Positions 6,937 through 12,382 of a DNA stretch of 41,452 nucleotides are shown piece after piece. The DNA comes from an uncultured Alphaproteobacteria bacterium. Its GTDB lineage: Bacteria; Pseudomonadota; Alphaproteobacteria; RF32; CAG-239. The position numbers and the translations under genes are program-made. Position 1 is the first letter of the stretch, and the number at the start of each line of letters is the position of its first letter. The stretch is from positions 1 to 41,452 of the forward strand of contig CALXOP010000051.1 in assembly GCA_944390035.1 (NCBI GenBank), written 5' to 3'. A model generated the notes under the pieces. It saw only the letters and a program-made list of their open reading frames with translations, was not told the origin of the DNA and ran no database searches.

Positions 6937-8058
6937 TTACATCACCTCAATATCTGCTTGCAAAGCCCCGCTGGCTTTAACGGCTTGCAAAATGCTGATT
7001 AAATCTCTAGGCGTTACGCCCAAGGCATTAAGCCCGTCAACGAGTTCTTGCAGGTTTACCCCGGAATCCAACACGCTGAGCTTACTGTTAACGCTTTCAT
7101 TAACGTCAATAGCGGTTAAATCTTGAGTAACGGTTACCCCATCAGAGAAAGGCAAAGGTTGTGATACCAACGGTGTTTCCGAAATTTTGATGGTTAAATT
7201 GCCTTGAGCAATGGCTAATTTATTGATTTTAACATCTTTGCCGATAACAATAATGCCCGAACTTTCATCAATAACGACTTTAGCCAACTGGTCAGGTTGA
7301 ACTTGCAACTGTTCAATTTTGGTCATCAAATCGACGACTTTGCCGCGATACTCGGCAGGAATTTCCAAATCAACGGTCGTCGGGTCGGTAGCTTTTGCCG
7401 CCGGTTGACCGAGCATGGCATTAATGGCATCGGAAACACGTCTTGCGGTGGTAAAATCAGGGTTTCGTAAAGCAATGCGAATATTTTTCAGGCTTTCCAA
7501 CGAAAAATCGACCTCATTTTCAATAATGGCACCATTGGCAATTCGCCCTGAAGTCGGAACACCTTTGGTAACGGAATTTCCGTTGCTTCTGGCAGAAACA
7601 CTGCCGGTAGCGATTTGACCTTGGGCGAGGGCATAGATTTCACCGTTAGCGGCGCTCAAAGGCGTTGCAATCAAAGTTCCGCCTTGCAAATCTTTGGCAT
7701 CTCCCATAGCGCTGACCGTAACGTCAATGCGGCTTCCTTGGCGTGCAAAAGGTGGCAAGCTGGCGGTCACCATAACGGCGGCAATGTTTTTGGACTTGAG
7801 CTGACCGTCACGAGCATTAATGCCGAGTTGATCCAGCATGCTGATCAGGCTTTCTTTGGCAAAGTTGATGGATTTGATGTTGTCACCGGTACCGTTTAAG
7901 CCGACAACAATACCGTATCCGACGAGTTGGTTTTCGCGGACCCCTTCAAAATCTGCAATATCTTTGATTCTTGAACTTGCCCAAGCCGTATCTATATTAA
8001 AGAACAGGGAGCAAACCAATAATCCCAGAACAGATTTATTAAATAAAAAAGTTTTCAT
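6937..8058 (-). CDS. flgI: Flagellar P-ring protein FlgI
   Basis: FlgI forms the periplasmic P-ring around the flagellar rod in Gram-negative bacteria. There is a Sec signal peptide (KTFLFNKSVLGLLVCSLFFNIDTAWA), then the family hallmark SRIKDIADFEGVRENQLVGYG, VVGLNGTGD and QGGTLIATPLSAANGEIYALAQG, and the conserved end VTPRDLISILQAVKASGALQADIEVM. Length (373 aa) is normal. I place the start at ATG 8058, 10 nt after GAGG; a TTG nine bases upstream would sit almost on the ribosome site. It is the first gene of the operon and lies behind a sigma-54-type promoter. Confidence 0.96.
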   Translation of the reverse strand: MKTFLFNKSVLGLLVCSLFFNIDTAWASSRIKDIADFEGVRENQLVGYGIVVGLNGTGDNIKSINFAKESLISMLDQLGINARDGQLKSKNIAAVMVTASLPPFARQGSRIDVTVSAMGDAKDLQGGTLIATPLSAANGEIYALAQGQIATGSVSARSNGNSVTKGVPTSGRIANGAIIENEVDFSLESLKNIRIALRNPDFTTARRVSDAINAMLGQPAAKATDPTTVDLEIPAEYRGKVVDLMTKIEQLQVQPDQLAKVVIDESSGIIVIGKDVKINKLAIAQGNLTIKISETPLVSQPLPFSDGVTVTQDLTAIDVNESVNSKLSVLDSGVNLQELVDGLNALGVTPRDLISILQAVKASGALQADIEVM

Positions 8059-8103
8059 GTTAATCAAACCTCAACAACTTTATAGTAAACTTAAAAACAT
8101 ATA

Positions 8104-8192: not shown

Positions 8193-9449
8193 ATGGAAAC
8201 ACAAAAAGTATTGCAAAAAGCGCACCAAACTCTCACAGAACTCAAGTCCGGAATTTTATTTATCAATAAAATCGGTAAAAAAATGGAAATGGCGCTTTCT
8301 TTGGTTGAAAACAAATTAAAGGAAGTTGATTTTGTTTTGTGGATAGCCCCGGCCAGCTTTTTGGCCACCAAACTTTATATGAACGAAATTAAAAAGAACA
8401 ATCGCACTTTTCGCCATCGCATCTATTTTTATTCGGTAGAAAGTATTGCTTTTTCGGATACAAAATATCTGGAGCTCTATAATCTTATTCATAATTTTAA
8501 AATATTTTGCGTGGTGGATGAAAGTATCACGATTAAAAATACGGATTCAGGACGAACCCAACGTCTTTTATCCTTGAGTCGCAAATTTGCCTACCGGCTA
8601 ATATTAAGTAGTATTCCGCTGAGTCAAGGATTGATAGATTTATATTCTCAATTAGAATTTCTTAATCCTAAAATCTTGCGTATGAACGAACAGCAGTTCG
8701 GACATATCTTTATGCCCTATAAATATAGCAATTATTTGGCAATGAGACGGTGGTCGCGTCCCGAAGATGAAGCTAAGGTATTTAATTATATGAAACCTTA
8801 TGTTCTAGGTTATGATTTTGGAGAAAAGTTGGATATTAAGTATCACAACAGCTATTTTGATTTAACCCCGCAAGAAGAAAAAAGCTATTTAGATGAAAAA
8901 TGTAAATTTTTACAAAACAGAGACCAACTTGTTTTTATGGACGTTGTTCAAAATTTTCAAAGAATATATACATTATCTCAAAACAAATTGATAGCGTTAC
9001 ACAAACTGGTGCATGAGATTATAGCCAGGGGAGAAAAGGTGATTATTTATCTGAAGTTTTTGGATGAAATAACTTTTCTGAAAGAGAGTCGCTACTTTGA
9101 AGGGATAAATTGCGTGGAGTTAACCGGGAGAACAAATAAGAAAAAGGCCATAAAGGCATTTGAACGTACGGCAGATATTATGTTTTGTACTTATGGTGTG
9201 GATAAATTTGGGTTAGATATGCAAATTTGCAATAATATTATTTATTTTTCTCAGACTTTTGACTATAAAAGTAAAATAGAAGGTTTGGATAGTGTGAATT
9301 CAAAAGGGATAGGACGTAAAATAAATATTTATGACTTTTGGGTCAAAACTAATTTAGAACAACTGATAAGTGATAATTTAGAAAAGAAAAAAACTGTCCT
9401 ATCAAATCTCCGCCATATGATAACAAAAGAGGAGGCGTTAAAGCTTTGA
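8193..9449 (+). CDS. SNF2-like protein with degenerate helicase/ATPase motifs
   Basis: The 418-aa protein follows the layout of a minimal SNF2 two-lobe motor. Motif Ia is APASFL (about 52-57). Motif II is DES followed by IKN (109-116, compare DEAH...IKN). An LSS(I)P element followed by LIDLYSQLEFL takes the place of TGTP...LWSLLNFL. The C-lobe block FGLDMQICNNIIYFSQTFDYKSKIEGLDS matches SNF2 motifs V-VI. Several catalytic positions are lost: the P-loop reads IGKKM (27-31) without the Thr/Ser, and the arginine-finger motif (QxxDRxxRIGQ) reads LDSVNSKGIGR. It is likely an inactive or highly altered motor that may bind DNA or the partner proteins. Its 3' end overlaps the IbrA-type gene by 4 nt, so the two are translationally coupled. 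The start has AAGGAAGGA upstream. Confidence 0.7.
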   Translation: METQKVLQKAHQTLTELKSGILFINKIGKKMEMALSLVENKLKEVDFVLWIAPASFLATKLYMNEIKKNNRTFRHRIYFYSVESIAFSDTKYLELYNLIHNFKIFCVVDESITIKNTDSGRTQRLLSLSRKFAYRLILSSIPLSQGLIDLYSQLEFLNPKILRMNEQQFGHIFMPYKYSNYLAMRRWSRPEDEAKVFNYMKPYVLGYDFGEKLDIKYHNSYFDLTPQEEKSYLDEKCKFLQNRDQLVFMDVVQNFQRIYTLSQNKLIALHKLVHEIIARGEKVIIYLKFLDEITFLKESRYFEGINCVELTGRTNKKKAIKAFERTADIMFCTYGVDKFGLDMQICNNIIYFSQTFDYKSKIEGLDSVNSKGIGRKINIYDFWVKTNLEQLISDNLEKKKTVLSNLRHMITKEEALKL

Positions 9450-10747
9450 AAAAATATTTGGATATCAATGTGTATGATGCACTGCAAGAAAGGCTGAAAT
9501 ATATATTTGAAAATTTTGATAATATATACGTTGCCTTTTCGGGAGGCAAAGATAGCGGCTTATTACTAAATTTGGTCTTGGATTATAAGCGCCGTCACAA
9601 TATTGACAAGAAAATCGGCGTTTTTCATCAAGATTTTGAGGCGCAATACCAAACCACAACCGATTTTGTAACCCGGATGTTTGAAAACAATATTCAGGAT
9701 ATTGAGCCTTATTGGGTTTGCATTCCACAGGCCTCTCGTTGTGCGGTCAGCAACTATCAAATGTATTGGTACCCTTGGGACCCAGATAAAGAAAGTGCCT
9801 GGGTGCGTCCGATGCCTAAGCAAGATTACATCATCAATTTACAAAACCATCATTTTGATTTTTATAAATATAAGATGGCGCAAGAAGATTTTTATGCCGA
9901 ATTCAGCCATTGGTATGCCAGAAATCACGAAGGAACAACTGTGTGTTTGTTAGGCATTCGCGCAGACGAATCCTTAAATCGTTATCGCGCTTATGCCAAT
10001 GATAAAAAAGTGAGCTTAGGTGACGGTAAATGGACCACGCAAATGGGCGACCATTTATATCACGCCTATCCGCTTTATGATTGGACCACAAAAGATGTTT
10101 GGGTCGCTAACGGCAAATTTGGTTTTGATTATAATCATATCTATGATTTGTTTTACAAAGCCGGCCTATCCATTAACCAAATGCGTGTTGCCAGTCCCTA
10201 TCACGAAAGTGCCAAAGATAGCCTGAATTTGTATCGTGTCTTAGAGCCCGACACATGGATTCGGATTGTCGGACGAGTACAAGGGGCTAATTTTGGAGCA
10301 ATATATGGCAACACCAAGGCCTTGGGTGCACGAAAATTCACCCTTCCGCCCGGACATACCTGGCGTTCTTATGTTAAGTTTTTGTTGGCGACCTTGCCTG
10401 CCAATATGCGGGAGAGTTATATCGCCAAATTTAAAACTTCCATTAAGTTTTGGTGGAAAACAGGAGGCGTCGTCAACGATGCTGCGCTCAAAGAATTGGA
10501 AGAGTGTAATTATCCGATTCGACACAACGGGCCTAGCAATTACAGCAAAGGCAAAGACAAAATCCGTTTTTTGGGCACGCCCGATAACACGGATGACATC
10601 AAATCAACAATTGATATTCCCTCTTGGAAGCGTATGGCCATATGCATTTTAAAAAATGACCACCTATGTAAATATATGGGCTTTACACAAACCAAAAAGC
10701 AAGCCGAGAGAGAAAAAGAACTACTTGAAAAATATAGAAATTTATAA
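9446..10747 (+). CDS. ibrA: IbrA-type PAPS-reductase-like protein (DUF3440 family)
   Basis: This 433-aa protein begins with an N-type ATP pyrophosphatase P-loop, AFSGGKDSG (about 31-39), and carries the ADESLNRYRAY and YPLYDWTTKDVW stretches typical of PAPS-reductase-fold proteins. The long C-terminal extension and the ParB-like partner downstream match IbrA of Escherichia coli, which with IbrB activates expression of prophage eib genes. It is not a sulphate-assimilation CysH: the CysH C-terminal ECG(I/L)H redox motif is absent. The start is TTG at 9446, overlapping the previous stop (TTGA), with AGGAGG about 11 nt upstream. The biochemical activity of this family is not established; the fold would allow adenylation or sulphur chemistry. 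Confidence 0.85.
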   Translation: MKKYLDINVYDALQERLKYIFENFDNIYVAFSGGKDSGLLLNLVLDYKRRHNIDKKIGVFHQDFEAQYQTTTDFVTRMFENNIQDIEPYWVCIPQASRCAVSNYQMYWYPWDPDKESAWVRPMPKQDYIINLQNHHFDFYKYKMAQEDFYAEFSHWYARNHEGTTVCLLGIRADESLNRYRAYANDKKVSLGDGKWTTQMGDHLYHAYPLYDWTTKDVWVANGKFGFDYNHIYDLFYKAGLSINQMRVASPYHESAKDSLNLYRVLEPDTWIRIVGRVQGANFGAIYGNTKALGARKFTLPPGHTWRSYVKFLLATLPANMRESYIAKFKTSIKFWWKTGGVVNDAALKELEECNYPIRHNGPSNYSKGKDKIRFLGTPDNTDDIKSTIDIPSWKRMAICILKNDHLCKYMGFTQTKKQAEREKELLEKYRNL

Positions 10748-10757
10748 AGGAAATAAA

Positions 10758-11270
10758 ATGAGTGAATTTAGAAGTCCGGTTTATGATGTTAAGGCAATCC
10801 CGGTAGAAAAAATCAAAGCCAACGATTATAACCCAAACCGCGTAGCACCTCCGGAGATGAAACTTTTGGAACTTTCAATTTGGGAGGATGGCTACACCCA
10901 ACCAATCGTTTGCTATCACGATAAAGAACATGATCAATACATTGTTGTGGACGGTTTTCACCGCTACACGACCATGTTGACCAGCAAACGAATTTATGAA
11001 AGAGAAAAGGGCTTAATGCCGGTTGTGGTAATAGACAAGCCCTTAGGCGACAGAATGGCCTCAACGATTCGTCATAACCGCGCCAGAGGCTCACACAATG
11101 TTGATTTGATGAGTAACATTGTGGCCGAACTCTTAGAAATGGGAAAAAGTGATGCCTGGATATGTAAAAACATAGGTATGTCTGCCGATGAAGTATTGAG
11201 ACTAAAGCAAATTACAGGTCTGGCATCGCTGTTTAAGGATGAAGAATTTTCAAGAAGTTGGGAAGTATAA
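10758..11270 (+). CDS. ibrB: IbrB-type ParB/Srx-like protein
   Basis: This 170-aa protein contains a ParB/sulfiredoxin-like N-domain. The block IPVEKIKANDYNPNRV comes first, followed by the nucleotide-binding core VVDGFHRYTT (about 58-67) and IRHNRARGSHN (about 100-110). A helical region follows that looks like a helix-turn-helix (KNIGMSADEVLRLKQITGL). ParB-type DGxHR motifs bind CTP or ATP in related families. It is 10 nt downstream of the IbrA-type gene. The ATG at 10758 has AAAGGA upstream; a longer reading from 10656 would overlap ibrA by about 90 nt and is unlikely. In E. coli the IbrA/IbrB pair acts together as an expression regulator. A terminator follows. Confidence 0.85.
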   Translation: MSEFRSPVYDVKAIPVEKIKANDYNPNRVAPPEMKLLELSIWEDGYTQPIVCYHDKEHDQYIVVDGFHRYTTMLTSKRIYEREKGLMPVVVIDKPLGDRMASTIRHNRARGSHNVDLMSNIVAELLEMGKSDAWICKNIGMSADEVLRLKQITGLASLFKDEEFSRSWEV

Positions 11271-11279
11271 ACAAAAAGC

Positions 11280-11303
11280 AAAGCCCGCAGTTTTGCGGGC
11301 TTT
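11280..11303. terminator. Bidirectional rho-independent terminator
   Basis: AAAGCCCGCA/TGCGGGCTTT gives a 10-bp perfect stem with a 4-nt GTTT loop between the convergent ibrB and mnmA genes. The minus-strand reading runs into a U-rich tract (TTTTTG), so it is a strong terminator for mnmA and is also usable by the ibr operon. Confidence 0.88.
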
Positions 11304-11305
11304 AC

Positions 11306-12382
11306 TTAAAATGCAGATTGAATAAAACCGCCACCAAGCACAAGGTCATCATCATATAAAACGACGGATTGTCCGGGGGTTAGGGCTTTTTGTAAATCTT
11401 CAAATTCAATTTGCAAACTATTCCCTTCAAGCGGAATAACATGAACTTGCACCGGCTTTTGCGAAGAGCGAATTTTTGCCGTGCAATCAAAGGGCTTGTC
11501 TAAAGCATTGACGGAAACCCAGTTGATGGCAGAGGCAATAACGCCTTTTTGCAAAGTTTCATCGGAAAAACCGAGCACTACTTCATTTTTTTCAGGTATC
11601 AAATCAAGAACATATAACGGCTTTTCGGCCGAGACACCAAGCCCTCGGCGTTGCCCAATCGTAAATTTCCAAAATCCGTTGTGTTTGCCAAGAATTTTGC
11701 CGTCACGGTTTACAAAATTACCGACTTTGGGCTGAGCTTGAATAATATCATTAATATCACCGGTATAAAAATCCTGACTGTCAGGTTTGTCGCTTACTGC
11801 CAAACCGAGCGATTTTGCTTTTTCTCTAATTTCGGTTTTGGTATAATCTCCGAGCGGCAACAAAATTTGCGCAAGCTGTTCTTGAGTGAGCCGATACAAA
11901 AAATAGGCTTGATCTTTTTGCTTATCTTTGCCGCAAAAAAGCTGATAACGCTGATTTTTCGCATTAAAATCCAGCTTTGCATAATGCCCGGTGGCAAACT
12001 TATCAAATTCCAGCCCTTGAGCTTTAGCGGCCATGGGCAATGCATTAAATTTGATGGTTGCATTGCACAATACGCAAGGGTTAGGCGTCCGCCCGGCAAG
12101 GTATTCTGACTTAAAGTTAGACAAGACGATTTTTTTGTATTGTTCCGTACAATCAATAACATAATAAGGAATATTTAAGGTTTTGCATACGCTTTGCGCC
12201 GCAGCAACATCTTGTTCTTCATGGGGCGAAAAACATCCTTCTTTTCCGGTCATATTGGCAAAATATTGATTTTTATCCCAAATAGACATGGTTGCACCGA
12301 TAACCTCATGTCCCTGAGCTTTTAACAGAGCCGCCGCCACGGAAGAATCAACGCCGCCGCTCATCCCGACAAGTATTTTCAT
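11306..12382 (-). CDS. mnmA: tRNA-specific 2-thiouridylase MnmA
   Basis: MnmA adenylates U34 in the anticodons of Lys, Glu and Gln tRNAs and replaces its 2-oxygen with sulphur. The PP-loop GMSGGVDSSVAA is at residues 7-18. Other family blocks are GRTPNPCVLCNATIKF (with a catalytic Cys), ATGHYAKLD, KDQAYFLYRL and FTIGQRRGLGV. Length (358 aa) is normal. The motif around residue 200 reads DKPDSQDFYTGD, whereas the E. coli enzyme has its second catalytic Cys (Cys199) in this region (often DSQ-x-ICF). The Cys is absent here. The gene is monocistronic and convergent with the ibr operon. A target tRNA, tRNA-Lys(UUU), lies further along this window. Confidence 0.95.
   Translation of the reverse strand: MKILVGMSGGVDSSVAAALLKAQGHEVIGATMSIWDKNQYFANMTGKEGCFSPHEEQDVAAAQSVCKTLNIPYYVIDCTEQYKKIVLSNFKSEYLAGRTPNPCVLCNATIKFNALPMAAKAQGLEFDKFATGHYAKLDFNAKNQRYQLFCGKDKQKDQAYFLYRLTQEQLAQILLPLGDYTKTEIREKAKSLGLAVSDKPDSQDFYTGDINDIIQAQPKVGNFVNRDGKILGKHNGFWKFTIGQRRGLGVSAEKPLYVLDLIPEKNEVVLGFSDETLQKGVIASAINWVSVNALDKPFDCTAKIRSSQKPVQVHVIPLEGNSLQIEFEDLQKALTPGQSVVLYDDDLVLGGGFIQSAF

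Follow-up and report, generated by a model that had tools for sequence, protein, structure and literature searches.

An SNF2-fold protein lacking its motor residues is conserved beside ibrA and ibrB in gut alphaproteobacteria and has relatives in phage cassettes

The DNA analyzed here, referred to as the window, is a stretch of 41,452 nucleotides (nt) (contig CALXOP010000051.1) from the genome of a gut alphaproteobacterium, whose nearest named relative in the genome collection is Azospirillum sp. CAG:239. At positions 8193-11270 the window carries a real and intact operon of three co-oriented genes, which encode an SNF2-fold protein (H), IbrA (A) and IbrB (B):

8193-9449, + strand: SNF2-fold gene (H), ATG start, 418 amino acids (aa); PF00176, phrog_62, comparison with 69 phage proteins and 41 proteins of the gut alphaproteobacterial clade
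9446-10747, + strand: ibrA (A), TTG start, 433 aa; PF01507, PF11922, alignment, structure model and fold search
10758-11270, + strand: ibrB (B), ATG start, 170 aa; PF02195, phrog_2159, alignment, fold search
9446-9449, + strand: 4-nt overlap TTGA, which holds the ibrA start and the SNF2 gene stop; read from the sequence

The original prediction, made from the letters of the window, was of a three-gene operon of these families with a 4-nt overlap and then a 10-nt gap; the open reading frames (ORFs), their coordinates, and the Pfam and PHROG families bear this out. Translational coupling of the SNF2 gene and ibrA is likely, given their overlap, and 10 nt separate ibrA from ibrB. A Shine-Dalgarno-like stretch precedes each gene, i.e., AAGGAAGGA for the SNF2 gene, GAGGAGG for ibrA and AAAGGA for ibrB.

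The matches of H to PF00176 (E-value of 1.2e-8, 34.9 bits, cut-off 24.9), to Helicase_C (22.6 bits, slightly below the cut-off of 23.5) and, by phmmer, to 1z63 are those of a two-lobe SNF2 fold, and the protein also matched phrog_62. Alignment with 69 phage H proteins revealed that the window protein reads IGKKM in the Walker A region (residues 27-31), where the phage proteins read GTGKT, SI instead of GT in motif III (140-141), and S367 and S370 instead of the arginine pair of motif VI, while DES of motif II (109-111) is retained. None of the 41 full-length clade proteins has the Walker A motif GxGK[TS], which is found in all 69 phage proteins, and none has both motif VI arginines, which are found in 68 of the 69; D109 and K399 are retained in all 41. 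Because the Walker A motif and the motif VI arginines are missing clade-wide, H of the window cannot be an ordinary ATP-driven motor. Judged by these residues, the SNF2 motor is dead throughout the gut alphaproteobacterial clade, with those for ATP hydrolysis gone, and a single loss of the motor in the clade with retention of the SNF2 fold is the parsimonious account. As far as we could find, a clade-wide dead SNF2 motor beside ibrAB has not been reported. No second, active copy of the cassette SNF2 protein was found in the relatives, where each IbrA-bearing genome had one match (in two pieces over contigs in genome G022).

The dead SNF2 protein is kept under purifying selection. For pairs with synonymous divergence (dS) of 0.1-1.0, the median ratio of nonsynonymous to synonymous divergence (dN/dS) was 0.069 for H, 0.027 for IbrA and 0.035 for IbrB, and that of H was about 0.05-0.10 in every usable pair; these values are rough, because many pairs were saturated and seven were usable for H. 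The SNF2 frame is full length in 41 of the 42 loci with a complete H, and conservation across the clade reaches 95% or more at 58 positions of H, several of them clade-specific. The protein distances of H and IbrA are correlated (Mantel r of 0.79; 0 of 2000 permutations that high). The ratio of H to IbrA protein distances was 2.4 in the clade vs. 1.6 in phages, so that the constraint on the clade H is looser yet present. In the one exceptional locus (L150:6711-8001), the SNF2 frame lies in two overlapping parts (275 and 169 aa), either a frameshift or an assembly error, and ibrA and ibrB are intact.

IbrA matched the PAPS (3′-phosphoadenosine 5′-phosphosulfate) reductase family PF01507 with 39.5 bits (cut-off 22.5), DUF3440 (PF11922) with 259 bits (cut-off 25; E-value of 2.8e-77) and phrog_2302. 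The PP-loop, SGGKDS, lies at residues 32-37 in a domain of the PAPS-reductase type that is followed by DUF3440. With the PP-loop domain and DUF3440 both above curated cut-offs and a ParB-like IbrB adjacent, the two proteins form an IbrA/IbrB pair. The PP-loop and other core residues, together with C92, C400 and C408, are identical in all 43 clade loci, and the ATP-pyrophosphatase site is thereby shown, at the level of sequence, to be intact. In an AlphaFold2 model of IbrA (predicted local distance difference test score, pLDDT, of 83), residues 3-267 matched PP-loop enzymes, i.e., flavin adenine dinucleotide (FAD) synthase (Z 15.3, root-mean-square deviation (rmsd) 3.8, 181 residues aligned), reductases of adenosine 5′-phosphosulfate (APS) and PAPS (Z 13-14.7), CysD (Z 13.8) and the tRNA enzymes TilS and NcsA (Z 10-12).

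IbrB matched phrog_2159 with an E-value of 2.5e-80 and PF02195 (ParB_N) at its cut-off. Its motifs DGFHRY (65-70) and RHNRARG (105-111) lie in a nucleotide fold of the ParB/sulfiredoxin type, after which comes a KorB-like helix-turn-helix (HTH) region (about 99-158), and DGxHR and RHNRxRG are identical in 43 of 43 clade loci. From these residues, the nucleotide site is likewise shown to be intact and joined to an HTH. The AlphaFold2 model of IbrB (pLDDT 82) matched KorB nearly end to end (Z 14.2, rmsd 6.2, 153 aligned), complexes of ParB with cytidine diphosphate (Z about 12) and Srx/SerK (Z 8-10), and its C-terminal part matched the DNA-binding domain of KorB (Z 8.8, rmsd 1.4, 57 aligned). 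The model lends support to a putative binding of nucleotide and DNA by IbrB. The nucleotide choice of ParB-type proteins is not predictable from sequence (PMC12704722).

Nearly all bacterial loci came from metagenome assemblies. The best 43 genome loci all belonged to the gut alphaproteobacterial group, with the SNF2 gene adjacent to ibrA in all 43 and ibrB present in 42, the exception being cut by the contig end. Similarly, all 15 of the sampled relatives with IbrA had the SNF2 gene beside ibrA, divided between contigs in one of them. Across the sampled whole genomes, IbrA was found in every member of some genera and in none of others. A decayed operon copy in G006, the sole congener without an IbrA match, was ruled out; the contig breaks off within the SNF2 gene, shortly past flgI. 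In the IbrA tree, the gut alphaproteobacterial proteins form one clade (Shimodaira-Hasegawa-like approximate likelihood ratio test, SH-aLRT, 99), whose next neighbour is the viral IbrA of L002, which has no SNF2 gene in its 124-kb contig, and then the IbrA of Clostridia. The ibrAB pair was found without an SNF2 gene in 37 Clostridia loci and seven other Pseudomonadota genomes. The pairs of gut Clostridia (L165-L201) are chromosomal, with varied surroundings, and their IbrA, at 54-59% identity, is closer to that of the window than most phage IbrA are. A shared partner gene was sought in these Clostridia loci and not found, and in three Clostridia genomes the SNF2 matches were only weaker ones, on contigs other than those of ibrAB or unlinked.

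The operon is flanked in the window by two genes that lie outside the system and by one hairpin:

6937-8067, - strand: flgI (flagellar P-ring protein), divergent upstream neighbour
11306-12382, - strand: mnmA (tRNA 2-thiouridylase), convergent downstream neighbour
11276-11307, no strand: terminator-like hairpin with a 14-pair stem, between the convergent ibrB and mnmA

The flgI neighbour is also found in L122, L123, L147, L127 and G006, and mnmA in L123 and L147. This context is common to near congeners; other clades have different neighbours, such as mutL, Zip-like, lpxK-like and other non-phage genes as read from sequence, and each context is conserved within its clade. No recognizable phage genes flanked the operon in the window, in L123/L147 or in the loci of other clades, and no defence-island neighbours were recognized around the operon loci. 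The window operon is chromosomal and inherited within clades, and a reading as prophage or defence island was rejected on account of the flanking genes. The hairpin, read earlier as the operon's own terminator, is present, is kept 3′ of ibrB in L147 and L123, and is probably common to ibrB and mnmA rather than the operon's own; the count of terminator-like sites overall was not above that of shuffled sequence.

The viral loci are predictions from IMG/VR that were chosen for their similarity to the window IbrA or to phage H. Among 80 IbrA-seeded viral contigs, IbrB was found in all 80 and the SNF2 gene in 67, mostly in the order H-A-B with frames that overlap or touch. The reverse search with the phage H alignment yielded 67 more viral loci (some from contigs already found), 60 of which had both ibrA and ibrB; in three others ibrA was present and the contig stopped before or inside ibrB. 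Two of the remaining four loci end straight after H, one has the start of ibrA, and L274, which has no ibrA, is the only one with a sizeable stretch (about 1.3 kb) after H. Linkage in both directions demonstrates that the SNF2 gene is a genuine, though not universal, partner of ibrAB, as the neighbourhood check proposed with the original prediction had asked, and SNF2-IbrA-IbrB is a widespread phage cassette. Lactobacillus phage CR28 and, with the order H-B-A, Flavobacterium phage FCV-1 are named examples. We found no name or description of this set in the open-licence literature; it may be described elsewhere. The window SNF2 protein had no matches as a direct query against viral contigs because it is too diverged. 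In Fusobacterium phage phiFN37 (L083:7298-12483), IbrA-IbrB-SNF2 adjoins a second ParB-like gene, a queuine tRNA-ribosyltransferase (TGT)-like gene and a queuosine precursor transporter. A possible link to 7-deazaguanine modification, suggested by this TGT-like gene and the nearby second ParB, did not extend further: within the three sets of ORFs that were searched, TGT was in no other fetched locus.

Of the 13 viral IbrAB loci without SNF2, 11 encode immediately before ibrA a small protein (79-128 aa) that resembles the C-terminal end of DUF3440 of IbrA itself (PSYR.ICKAILKND..L.SLGF), and before it a further small protein (c6); of the other two loci, L031 is truncated on the upstream side and L002 lacks both small proteins. 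The small DUF3440-like protein of L053 matched PF11922 (4e-8). The 11 genes are as follows:

L053, 964-1245: small DUF3440-like protein
L054, 992-1273: small DUF3440-like protein
L046, 1320-1601: small DUF3440-like protein
L030, 3184-3438: small DUF3440-like protein
L048, 2627-2893: small DUF3440-like protein
L041, 4708-5001: small DUF3440-like protein
L033, 4747-5004: small DUF3440-like protein
L056, 4765-5001: small DUF3440-like protein
L043, 4661-5044: small DUF3440-like protein
L019, 2886-3137: small DUF3440-like protein
L038, 4778-5044: small DUF3440-like protein

The small DUF3440 protein was absent from every SNF2-bearing locus examined. Phage IbrAB thus seems to carry either SNF2 or the small pair, with the pair as a replacement, and a small pair in the place of SNF2 is easier to reconcile with a targeting role than with that of an indispensable motor. 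The cassettes of many phages have a fourth small gene, which immediately precedes the SNF2 gene (at L024:3464-3784 and in some 90 further viral loci) and encodes phrog_5809 (about 107 aa) or an unrelated-looking substitute. A C-terminal tail with the ending [DE]L[KR][KR] or DL[IVF]R recurs in many of the encoded proteins; it is possibly a docking peptide and could in part be an effect of the overlapping Shine-Dalgarno sequence. The fourth gene was not found in the gut bacterial operons.

IbrB resembles the KorB/Noc/ParB DNA clamps, which depend on cytidine triphosphate, in having a ParB nucleotide fold followed by an HTH. ParB has a GERR motif and a C-terminal dimerisation domain, whereas IbrB has DGxHR instead and, at 170 aa, ends after the HTH. 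IbrA/IbrB of Escherichia coli are co-activators of prophage eib genes (Sandt 2002, as cited in PMC6008420), and ybdNM (YbdN/YbdM) of E. coli K-12 is repressed by CitR (PMC9068703). Both are, as in the window, chromosomal pairs of adjacent DUF3440 PP-loop and ParB-like proteins (PMC9068703, PMC6008420). The other Pseudomonadota copies are ibrA-ibrB pairs too, but none of the seven examined has an SNF2 gene beside it, and their IbrA are distant from that of the window, with DUF3440 in two separated stretches. The phage cassettes, such as those of Lactobacillus phages CR28 and phiAQ113 and Streptococcus phage CHPC877, have the same three families, usually in the same order and with the same overlaps, and an IbrA about 45-49% identical to that of the window; their SNF2 proteins have all ATPase motifs, and before the SNF2 gene there is often a fourth small gene, which is missing from the bacterial operon. 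PglZ of BREX and DndH have inactive Swi2/Snf2 domains without ATP-binding motifs in nucleic-acid systems (PMC12839542). H of the window likewise keeps an SNF2-type P-loop fold without these motifs; that of PglZ/DndH is, however, a shortened single N-terminal domain of a larger protein, whereas H has both lobes and is a separate protein beside IbrAB.

We consider it probable, though by no means assured, that the operon represents a cassette related to those of phages and fixed in the chromosome, with IbrAB as its catalytic, DNA-directed core and the SNF2 pseudo-ATPase as a targeting or scaffold subunit. IbrB would bind DNA plus a nucleotide and bring IbrA to the target, where IbrA would adenylylate or otherwise activate a group carried either by a nucleic acid, probably DNA, or by a partner bound to DNA; target genes would then be expressed or modified differently, much as E. 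coli IbrAB activates the prophage eib genes. The ATP-driven SNF2 motor of phages may help the targeting on DNA, and in the gut clade the pseudo-ATPase may be confined to a scaffolding, target-recognition or regulatory role. A nucleic-acid-directed complex, as originally predicted, is plausible; an ordinary ATP-driven SNF2 motor in this organism is excluded by the loss of the Walker A motif and of both motif VI arginines. More tentatively, and with a little under an even chance in our judgement, the two-lobe pseudo-ATPase is an obligate non-motor subunit of a nucleic-acid-modifying or gene-activating IbrAB complex, and IbrAB is an enzyme core that depends on targeting, with a third subunit exchangeable among an active SNF2, a dead SNF2 and the small DUF3440-tail pair. 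Several points weigh against the main reading. The reaction, the substrate, the complex and the DNA binding are what we infer for the set; for PP-loop enzymes, tRNA and small molecules are no less frequent substrates than DNA, and a DNA target of IbrA rests mainly on the IbrB HTH and the phage context. The dN/dS of H comes from only seven pairs with unsaturated dS, and the faster change of H relative to IbrA in the clade than in phages indicates that partial relaxation is real. At position 30 of H, 27 of the 41 clade proteins have K and the other 14 have R, D109 is retained, and the dead SNF2 protein could therefore still bind ATP.

The lost motor residues and the position of H as the fastest-evolving of the three proteins would also be expected of a decaying passenger that is kept only through its translational coupling to ibrA over the 4-nt overlap, with IbrAB alone as the working system, as it is without SNF2 in Clostridia and E. 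coli; the split frame in L150 could be counted here as well. The conserved amino acids of H (58 positions, some of them clade-specific) are not explained by coupling alone, and the low dN/dS and the full-length frames also disfavour a passenger, which we regard as quite unlikely. The decaying remnant that would have told against the system was likewise not what we found, given the selection on H and the IbrA and IbrB residues identical in all 43 loci. It is unlikely, if slightly less so, that IbrA-IbrB modifies RNA (tRNA), with IbrA adenylating a base in the manner of TilS or the thiolases and with IbrB and H as guides to RNA: TilS and NcsA are among the PP-loop relatives, and C92, C400 and C408 might carry sulfur or a metal cluster, but the closest folds are FAD synthase and the APS/PAPS reductases (Z 13-15), the HTH of IbrB is like that of KorB, and the linked SNF2 proteins belong to a motor family of the double-stranded-DNA type. 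Least probable, in our view, is anti-phage defence or a Dnd/Dpd-like DNA-modification defence. The PADLOC matches that suggest it are weak (H to DpdE, 2.5e-10; IbrA to DndC, 4.2e-6), no defence-island neighbours were recognized, and phages themselves commonly carry the cassette. The likeness to Dnd that had been predicted is limited to short PP-loop motif matches, as IbrA and DndC have in common the PP-loop together with a region around a short GxRxxES..R motif, but IbrA is far below the DndC cut-off (TIGR03183 of NCBIfam, 18 vs. 290 bits). DndD was not found in the window genome (G000, 75% complete) or above its cut-off in 14 of the 15 IbrA-bearing relatives; it was above the cut-off in one of 56 genomes, on a contig other than that of ibrA. 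Thus, Dnd-type phosphorothioation is not supported.

IbrAB, known since about 2002 as an activator of prophage genes, is thus also the core of a widespread phage cassette. Natural variants exist in which the motor is active or dead, or in which the third subunit is swapped or missing; they offer a ready comparison for the role of the third subunit and bear on whether IbrAB acts without ATP-driven remodelling. The conserved SNF2 pseudo-ATPase of the gut alphaproteobacteria is also a test case for roles of the SNF2 fold beyond hydrolysis.

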